In this document: positions 13,284 through 15,264 of the stretch, piece after piece
Layout: the number at the start of each line of letters is the position of its first letter
Position numbering within the stretch: the stretch's first letter is position 1
DNA from: an uncultured Oscillospiraceae bacterium
GTDB lineage: Bacteria; Bacillota; Clostridia; Oscillospirales; Oscillospiraceae
NCBI GenBank assembly: GCA_947626905.1
Contig: CANQUE010000002.1
Location: 1 to 64,000, forward strand
Length of the DNA: 64,000 bases
Direction of reading: 5' to 3'
Position numbers and translations under genes: made by a program
The notes under the pieces: model-generated
Seen by the model: only the letters and a program-made list of their open reading frames with translations
Database searches by the model: none
What the model was told of the DNA's origin: nothing

Positions 13284-14027
13284 TCATTTCACACTCTTCC
13301 AATAATCCAGCGAGGAAAAGCCCCTGTCCAGCTGGTAGCGCACGAAAAGCTCCGCCGCCCGGCCCAGCCGCTCCAGCGAGGGCTCTGCCAGCGCGAAGGA
13401 AAACTCCTTTTTCGCCGGAGCGTTCACGATGTACCGCATAGCGGCCAGCGCCTCGGCGTCCAGGGCCACGGACGCCCCCTCGGTCCCCGGCGCGCATCCC
13501 GCGCAGTGGACCATGCCGGAGGCCGGGGAGAACATGGGCCCGTCCGGATCGGCCCGGCCGCATACGCCGCACCGGTCCACCTCCGGCTGGAACCCCTCCA
13601 GGCACATGAGCCGCAGCTCGAACACCGCCTTCACATGCTCCGGTCCGTATATCCCCCGGCTCAGAGCGTACAGGGCGTTCAGCCCCAGCTGCAGGGCCGG
13701 TCCGGCGCTCTGCTCCTCGGGACAGACCGTGTCCAGCAGCTCGGCGAAATAATTGCCCAAAGCCAGCTGGGCGATGTCCTCCCGCAGGCCCAAAAACTGC
13801 TCGATGGTGCTCCCCTCGTCGGCGGTCCACTTTCCCCGGTTGCCGAACAGCGTGAACTCCGACCAGCACAGCGCCTGGCTGGCCGCGCCCATGCGGCTTC
13901 CCTTGCGCAGCGCTCCCCTGGCCTTCACCGTCAGCTTTCCCTCCGGCCCTGTCAGCAGGGTGAGGATGCGGTCGGCCTCCTTATAGCGGACCTGACGCAG
14001 TACCAGGCCTCTGACCGTCTGAAACAT
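13284..14027 (-). CDS. recO: DNA repair protein RecO
   Basis: VRGLVLRQVRYKEADRILTLLTGPEGKLTVKARGALR; C-rich CGVCGRADPDGPMFSPASGMVHCAGC. Confidence 0.94.
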   Translation of the reverse strand: MFQTVRGLVLRQVRYKEADRILTLLTGPEGKLTVKARGALRKGSRMGAASQALCWSEFTLFGNRGKWTADEGSTIEQFLGLREDIAQLALGNYFAELLDTVCPEEQSAGPALQLGLNALYALSRGIYGPEHVKAVFELRLMCLEGFQPEVDRCGVCGRADPDGPMFSPASGMVHCAGCAPGTEGASVALDAEALAAMRYIVNAPAKKEFSFALAEPSLERLGRAAELFVRYQLDRGFSSLDYWKSVK

Positions 14028-14064
14028 TCTATGTACCGTTCCCCGTCACAGGGACCTGCTGCGC

Positions 14065-14098
14065 CGGTATATCACCCAGCACAGAGGGTCCCCCGTAT
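14065..14098. repeat. 34-bp direct repeat, copy 1
   Basis: CGGTATATCACCCAGCACAGAGGGTCCCCCGTAT, identical to 14251-14284. Confidence 0.98.
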
Positions 14099-14250
14099 TT
14101 TGATCCGATCTGCTCGGCGGAAGTGAATCCCGCCGGCATGATCCAAAAGCCTGACGTGCTGCGGCTTTTGGATCTCACGCGCGGGAACGCCGCGCGGCTC
14201 GGCCTGACCGGCCTTCGCTCCACGACGGAAGGTCCCCGTCGCTCCACGCG
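14099..14250. mobile_element. 152-bp hairpin-rich insert, MITE/REP-like candidate, between the 34-bp repeats
   Basis: Perfect 12-bp inverted repeat GATCCAAAAGCC (14140-14151)/GGCTTTTGGATC (14163-14174); CGCGCGG/CCGCGCG (14178-14184/14190-14196); internally repeated cgctccacg motif; no family-like ORF. Confidence 0.5.
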
Positions 14251-14284
14251 CGGTATATCACCCAGCACAGAGGGTCCCCCGTAT
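14251..14284. repeat. 34-bp direct repeat, copy 2
   Basis: Identical to 14065-14098. Confidence 0.98.
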
Positions 14285-14361
14285 CCAAAAACAGCTGCCA
14301 AAGCAGCTTCTGTTCCATCTCTATCACCCCGTCTTAGTCTTCCACGGCGGGGCGGCAAGTA

Positions 14362-15264
14362 TCACTCTTCGGTGAAGCCAAAATTTCGCAGCAGCGCGTC
14401 GGAATCCCGCCAGTTCTCCTTCACCTTCACCCAGGTCTGCAAAAACACCTTGGCGCCCATGAACCTTTCGATGTCCTGGCGGGCAAGCTCGCCGATGCGC
14501 TTGAGCATCGCGCCCTTTTTCCCGATGATGATGCCCTTGTGGGACTGCTTTTCGCAGTAGATGGTCACATCCATATCGATGATATCGCTGCCGTCATCCC
14601 GCCCGGCGAACTTCGTCACCACCACGGCGGTGCCATGGGGGATCTCCTTGTCCAGACACAGGAGCAGCTTTTCCCGGACGATCTCGGCGCAGATCTGCTT
14701 TTCCGGCTGGTCGCTGATCACATCGTCGGGGAACAGGGGCGGGCCGGGCAGCGCGAACTTGTCCAGCTCCTCCAGCAGCTCCTCCACCCCTTCGCCCGTC
14801 CGGGCGCTGATGGGCACCACGGCGGCGAAGTCATAGGCCTGGCTGTAAGCCGCGATCACCGGCAGAAGATCCCGCTTGTCCTCCAGCGCGTCCACCTTGT
14901 TGATGGCCAGCAGGGCGGGCACGCCGGTCTCCCGGATCCGGCCGATGAGTTTTTTCTCGATATCGCCGACGCCGGCCACCGGCTCCGCCATCAGCACCAC
15001 CGCGTCCACATCCGCCACGCTCTGGCGGACCACATTATCCATATAGCTTCCCAGCTTTGTCCGGGCCCGGTGAAAGCCGGGCGTATCGGCGAACACGAAC
15101 TGGGTCTGGCCCCGGCTGGCCACCGCCAGGATCCGGGTGCGGGTGGTCTGGGGCTTGGGCGACACGATGGCGATCTTCTCGCCCACCAGGGCGTTCGTCA
15201 GGGTGGATTTTCCCACATTGGGGCGGCCGCAGATCGTGATCATAGCCGTTTTTGTGATCATCAC
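14362..15264 (-). CDS. era: GTPase Era
   Basis: GRPNVGKSTLTNALVGEKIAIVSPKPQTTR; C-terminal KH domain IIGKKGAMLKRIGELARQDIE. Confidence 0.97.
   Translation of the reverse strand: MMITKTAMITICGRPNVGKSTLTNALVGEKIAIVSPKPQTTRTRILAVASRGQTQFVFADTPGFHRARTKLGSYMDNVVRQSVADVDAVVLMAEPVAGVGDIEKKLIGRIRETGVPALLAINKVDALEDKRDLLPVIAAYSQAYDFAAVVPISARTGEGVEELLEELDKFALPGPPLFPDDVISDQPEKQICAEIVREKLLLCLDKEIPHGTAVVVTKFAGRDDGSDIIDMDVTIYCEKQSHKGIIIGKKGAMLKRIGELARQDIERFMGAKVFLQTWVKVKENWRDSDALLRNFGFTEE

Follow-up and report, generated by a model that had tools for sequence, protein, structure and literature searches.

Between era and recO, in a contig from an uncultured Oscillospiraceae bacterium, the reading frame expected to encode the small protein YqzL runs into a hairpin-rich segment of 152 bp that is flanked by long direct repeats, and this locus raises the question of what the segment is, how it came to lie between such repeats and what it has done to the gene. 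Our analysis started from the window, i.e., the whole stretch of 64,000 nucleotides to which all coordinates refer (Table 1). The initial annotation, made from the letters alone, had described perfect 34-bp repeats around the 152-bp middle, and recomputation reproduced both the coordinates and the 100% identity (14065–14098 and 14251–14284; spacing 186), so that the arrangement of two repeats plus an insert at yqzL is confirmed. The 12-bp stem and the internal repeat that had been reported inside the middle were both located (14140–14174 and 14212–14248, respectively), the latter as a 13-nt repeat of 92% identity (14212–14224/14236–14248), and the middle also holds a four-hairpin core that we defined from aligned copies. 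The span from 14065 to 14284, which takes in both repeats, folds with z = -3.2 relative to shuffles.

Table 1. Features of the interval from recO to era in the window
Feature	Position	Strand	Remarks
era, upstream neighbor	14362..15264	-	Pfam MMR_HSR1 and KH_2
yqzL-like ORF, 47 aa (23 native codons and an element-coded tail)	14175..14318	-	in G020 and G021 the frame is likewise open as far as this stop
Direct repeat copy 1 (very probable target duplication)	14251..14284	-	codes for part of YqzL; single copy at the empty site of 7 relatives
Inserted element, 152 bp, form B	14099..14250	-	no IS1182-like terminal repeats; same place in G020 and G021 at 93–97% identity
Local repetition, 24 nt, of the 5′ edge of the core (CGTGGAGCGACGG / CGTGGAGCGAAGG)	14212..14248	-	also in G020 and G021
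Folded core common to dispersed copies	14107..14221	-	BLAST matches to query 98–212 in many genomes
Hairpin 1	14197..14218	-	GC..GC closing pair and GGCC/GGCC stem, loop GGTCA
Hairpin 2	14178..14196	-	CGCGCGG/CCGCGCG; some other copies have an extra domain of about 110 nt here
Hairpin 3	14140..14174	-	12-bp stem GATCCAAAAGCC/GGCTTTTGGATC (14140–14151/14163–14174); six pairs changed on both sides
Hairpin 4	14111..14138	-	TGCCGGCGGGATTCACTTCCGCCGAGCA; recognizable in other genera of the order
Direct repeat copy 2	14065..14098	-	native yqzL end comes next
recO, downstream neighbor	13284..14027	-	Pfam RecO_N and RecO_C

The insert is almost certainly a member of a dispersed mobile family. Sequence searches revealed one further copy of the element in the window genome (contig C57) and matches to the window region in 30 of 60 relatives, some of which matched yqzL alone; all of these matches fell within the window genus, save for one marginal match of 31 bases. 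In many genomes there are at least a dozen copies, and one of these genomes, G009, gave 26 matches, whole and partial. The initial annotation had tied its reading to the existence of other copies of the 152-bp segment, and such dispersed copies do exist. With a covariance model built from 20 copies, hits were obtained in 20 genomes out of 297 from the order, belonging to 11 of 149 genera, and related cores reach other genera as well as other families of the order; the window copy itself scored 148.6 bits over 14093–14241, although it was part of the training set. In the window region, no Rfam 15 family reached even E 5, an Rfam search of 20 loci returned only a tRNA, and phage and plasmid records held no match to the element. 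Literature searches, mainly of openly accessible papers, yielded no description of this family, which is apparently undescribed.

What the copies have in common is a core of about 115 nt composed of four hairpins, the 3′ part of which is conserved more widely than the 5′ part. In 20 aligned copies, standard pairs fill 99.9% of the pair cells and 10 of the 36 core pairs have changed on both sides; neither value was matched by any of 500 shuffles, and the covariation signal was lost when the pairing partners were slid. The paired percentage benefits from the fact that the structure was derived from this very alignment, and the double changes constitute the stronger evidence for folding. As judged from the alignment, folding of the core is maintained through compensatory changes, and the core would act as RNA or as single-stranded DNA.

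Flanking direct repeats are not peculiar to the window locus. Among 117 non-redundant copies read from the window genus, 47 possess flanking repeats with a score of at least 18, as compared with 0.17% of 600 mismatched flank pairs, while in 64 no flanking repeat scores above 12 points, which indicates that many copies have decayed or moved otherwise. Across the family, the target duplications measure 20–106 bp; flanking duplications of more than 30 bp, proposed at the outset as the feature to look for at other copies, were found. The direct repeats around the core are target duplications, single-copy at empty sites. For the uvrC-like copy L170, eight other species have the 64-bp repeat in a single copy, and in five of them no gap interrupts the full 300 bp compared. 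The L023 site is also empty in relatives, with a single repeat copy, and the same holds for two sites of form A (see below; L149 and L012), whose alignments are diverged, and for four sites in related genera (L080, the glmS-like L086, the dtd-like L087 and L107). The gene names at the uvrC-like, glmS-like and dtd-like sites are our reading of translated ends rather than profile matches. The 34-bp repeats in the window are very probably a target duplication too, and the idea of a long target duplication made by an inserted element, put forward in the initial annotation, is supported by single-copy empty sites at yqzL and elsewhere. The same annotation had offered slippage or recombination in place, with no mobile element involved, as another origin. 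Hairpins and direct repeats are classic substrates of slippage, and both are present here; nevertheless, the middle is common to many unrelated loci, and clean single-copy empty states are found elsewhere, which contradicts this origin and leaves it a negligible chance.

The copies can be divided into two forms. Form A copies have an entire terminator-like hairpin as their repeat. Its aligned length is 24–46 bp, and the longest examples take in some element sequence; it is located about 25 nt before the core and 38–40 nt after it, and its folding is pronounced (median z -7.9, with 97% below -2). The 5′ end of form A, CAGACTGTCAAAGAA, is one base off CAGTCTGTCAAAGAA, the perfect inverted repeat of 15 bp carried by an intact insertion sequence (IS) in G033, and the 3′ end resembles that repeat more weakly. 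Both IS1182-like ends are present in 28 of 34 form A copies, and at least one in all 34. The transposase of the IS in G033 gives a curated IS1182-family match of 404 bits (cut-off 270), and this IS itself sits between duplicated hairpin copies. We place form A, but not the window copy, among the MITEs of the IS1182 family. The window genome (G000) exhibits 13 termini of the IS1182-family IS at contig ends (L290–L302, at which contigs C7, C19, C21, C23, C25, C26, C31, C46, C57, C73 and C85 break). All 20 sampled IS termini, including these 13, abut strong hairpins, and the contig-end pairs L291/L301 and L298/L299 resemble, from a reading of their loops, two sides of one hairpin-duplicating insertion. 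Although the IS1182 family search of the window genome assembly returned no transposase gene, the IS is probably multi-copy in this genome; its termini at contig ends illustrate how multi-copy genes are collapsed in draft assemblies. Given that this search was empty in a genome that has the termini, little weight attaches to a failure to find an enzyme in these draft assemblies.

Form B, to which the window copy belongs, is different in its ends and targets. Among the form B copies with repeats, 13 of 14 have neither of the IS1182-like ends; their ends are consistent among copies and lie near the core. The repeats, 20–64 bp in the window genus, are positioned near the core on either side and are as a group not hairpins, and the targets are mostly gene 3′ ends (last codons) or start/ribosome-binding regions. 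Form B-like copies in other genera of the family have repeats of 44–106 bp. In being short, non-coding and multi-copy and in having direct repeats at its flanks, the window element resembles a MITE; it has no IS1182-family terminal inverted repeats, and its 34-bp repeat, with a folding z of 0.4, is not a hairpin target. Its longer 5′ gap is due to the 24-nt local repetition.

In related genera (g27, g29 and g38), eight copies with repeats show the best inverted match of the element 5′ end at an offset between -5 and +1 relative to where the first repeat starts, with scores of 8–14 in seven cases and 7 in one (null distribution: 90% point 8, 99% point 9). At L085, L086, L087, L088, L092, L104 and L107, the element 5′ end carries about 8–21 nt that are an inverted copy of the first repeat's outer edge. 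This feature was not seen in the window genus; fold-back copying during insertion, or later correction of imperfect palindromes, is a conceivable source.

The explanation to which we give somewhat better than even odds treats the element as non-autonomous, with its identity residing in the folded core of about 115 nt. The core would be moved in trans by a putative enzyme that recognizes its folded state and would be joined across a widely staggered break, the filling of which would duplicate 20–106 bp (34 bp at the window locus), and the insertions retained by selection would be those after which a gene end, start region or terminator is still usable because of the duplication. Within the window genus, some cores would have gained IS1182-family inverted repeats and become form A, moved by the IS1182 transposase into terminator hairpins with duplication of the hairpin. 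That form B depends on a separate enzyme, and not on the IS1182 enzyme, likewise seems to us marginally the better bet. A more specific version, in which the element's own putative enzyme or an RNA-dependent process produces both the 20–106-bp duplications and, in related genera, the inverted 5′ copies (about 7–21 nt), with IS1182 ends captured later in one genus, is put forward tentatively, as the balance tips against it. A slightly lower chance, and hence an unlikely one, is given to a single mover, the IS1182 transposase, with form B having lost its ends later or needing only the core hairpins, and with a long stagger sometimes made at non-hairpin DNA. Form A clearly fits this transposase, the IS1182-family IS is probably multi-copy in the window genome, and the poorly resolved core tree intermingles forms A and B, a pattern also compatible with a single mover and subsequent loss of ends; moreover, at one site the 3′ hairpin is present in one species and missing in another (L185, L186). 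However, form B repeats are near the core on either side even though 13 of 14 copies have neither end, so that end loss would have stopped at the repeats every time; in addition, form B targets are not hairpins as a group, and no IS1182 match was found in G091, G177, G042 or G085, all of which hold core copies.

The separate form B enzyme favored above has no match among the families searched: no mover was found, with RVT_1, IS1634 and Y1 each missing from several copy-rich genomes, which are draft assemblies, and no autonomous composite, with the core beside a reverse transcriptase, Y1 or IS gene, was detected. Insertion sequences of the IS1549/IS1634 type generate long, variable target duplications, a trait that they have in common with the element, but an IS1634-family match over the cut-off occurred in none of 21 genomes (draft assemblies), and the idea of an IS1634-driven element was dropped. 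The Y1 transposase was rejected as a general mover, being present in only 10 of 27 copy-bearing genomes and missing from many copy-rich ones, and so was reverse transcriptase, with RVT_1 in only 9 of 21 copy-bearing genomes. The latter result bears on a bacterial-SINE-like process, namely an RNA copy followed by target-primed reverse transcription that would give long, variable duplications. A folded core with covariation, a wider conservation of its 3′ part and duplications varying between 20 and 106 bp would all suit such a process; yet the 12 of 21 genomes without RVT_1 include the copy-rich G002 and G042 (97–98% complete), no core adjoins a reverse transcriptase gene, and we regard this route as very improbable.

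Compared with known systems, the element combines familiar and unfamiliar traits. In staphylococci, IS1272/TnSha1 of the IS1182 family target stem-loops, which they delete or replace, leaving no duplication (PMC4923244; PMC5678879). Form A and the IS described here also target stem-loops, largely terminator-like and with no sequence consensus, but they duplicate the whole hairpin, an apparent variant of the IS1272/TnSha1 behavior; the window copy differs from those elements in having neither IS1182 ends nor a hairpin target. Prokaryotic MITEs have terminal inverted repeats of about 4–30 bp as their shared architecture (PMC10969869); like them, the element is shorter than 500 bp, dispersed, foldable, devoid of a transposase and flanked by direct repeats, whereas the window copy has no terminal inverted repeats and the duplications of the family (20–106 bp) are much longer than usual. 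With REP/REPIN-RAYT (Y1) systems the element has in common dispersed extragenic palindromes, but its core is longer, with several hairpins, its duplications are long, and Y1 is missing from many copy-rich genomes. Hence, the initial designation as "MITE/REP-like" holds in its first half, the window element being a MITE-like non-autonomous element, and not in its second, as the element is longer than a REP, has several hairpins and is accompanied by no consistent Y1 transposase. BOX, RUP and SPRITE of Streptococcus pneumoniae are mentioned as repeats in the same review (PMC10969869); as small, folded, interspersed repeats of a Gram-positive lineage they are like the element in general character, and Rfam has no match to the element. 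Duplications of 20–106 bp are far beyond what most bacterial transposases leave; they explain how elements can lie at gene ends without destroying genes, and how genes can come to have a new C-terminus or a second ribosome-binding site or terminator. Two insertion modes of one folded core, along with a hairpin-duplicating IS1182-type element, make the mechanism testable.

The window insertion is old and most likely predates the split of three species. G000, G020 and G021 have a common insertion point, with exact ends and the 24-nt repetition, and their yqzL elements are mutual nearest neighbors. The two repeats differ at 0, 2 and 0 of 34 positions within G000, G020 and G021, respectively, whereas between the three genomes they show 2–5 differences in 34, with flanks that are 84–92% identical. 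As three species have the same insertion, perfect repeats do not signify a recent event; gene conversion between the 34-bp repeats has probably kept them alike within each genome. Independent, repeated insertion at the same point of yqzL would account for repeats that are identical within G000 and within G021 yet differ at 5 of 34 positions between them, and for an element 97% alike between flanks of 85%, and at some other common sites the elements are not mutual nearest relatives. Nonetheless, the mutual nearest-neighbor relation of the three elements and their common 24-nt 5′ repetition and exact ends make independent events improbable. We also considered that synonymous-only differences between repeat copies might point to the import of gene ends; conversion together with selection on the functional copy would fit these differences better.

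For the gene, this old insertion is an alteration of the C-terminus more than an interruption. The frame runs from the ATG at 14318 through the insert to the stop at 14175, and the native end, ...YRRSRSL*, is readable from the second repeat copy. Uninterrupted yqzL, which the initial annotation had proposed to look for in relatives, was found in seven of the same genus, with a YqzL-like ORF of 28–31 aa in the era–recO spacer, so that the arrangement seen in the window is not carried by all relatives. The claim that yqzL is interrupted therefore stands insofar as the insertion lies inside the gene, but only the C-terminus is changed: with 23 of about 28 codons upstream of the insert, the gene is altered at its end and not halved. 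The extended 47-aa frame, open to the same stop in G000, G020 and G021, is the predicted product, and since 23 native codons are retained and the element codes for an added tail, the gene may not be inactive. The name YqzL rests mostly on position, the ORF lying between era and recO where YqzL is expected; a single uninterrupted relative matches Pfam PF14006 (YqzL), at E 0.009 and below the cut-off, and a PF14006 profile search of the window ORF gave no match.

Several further observations concern individual copies. At L088, past the second repeat, a further hairpin segment is followed by a third partial copy of an infB-like gene end, which suggests repeated insertions at one gene end. In the gap between ybeY-like and era-like genes of three species (L156, L175 and L177), form B-like copies occupy the same spot; the duplicated stretch includes the ribosome-binding-like GGAGGAA before era, and the elements are not mutual nearest relatives. 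An orientation bias derived from the longest open stretch was dropped, given that in GC-rich DNA the antisense frames are open as well. The extra folded domain of about 110 nt in the hairpin 2 loop (L032, L033, L034, L035, L036 and L037) is alike among several genomes of the genus. Many related cores occur in genus g9, which belongs to another family of the order (G066, G085, G131 and G042; L079, L081, L084 and L099), and some of them are apparently tandem or have hairpins in common. Finally, a decayed copy (L072, G009:C8:5302-5355) lies just upstream of a small serine-recombinase-like ORF.
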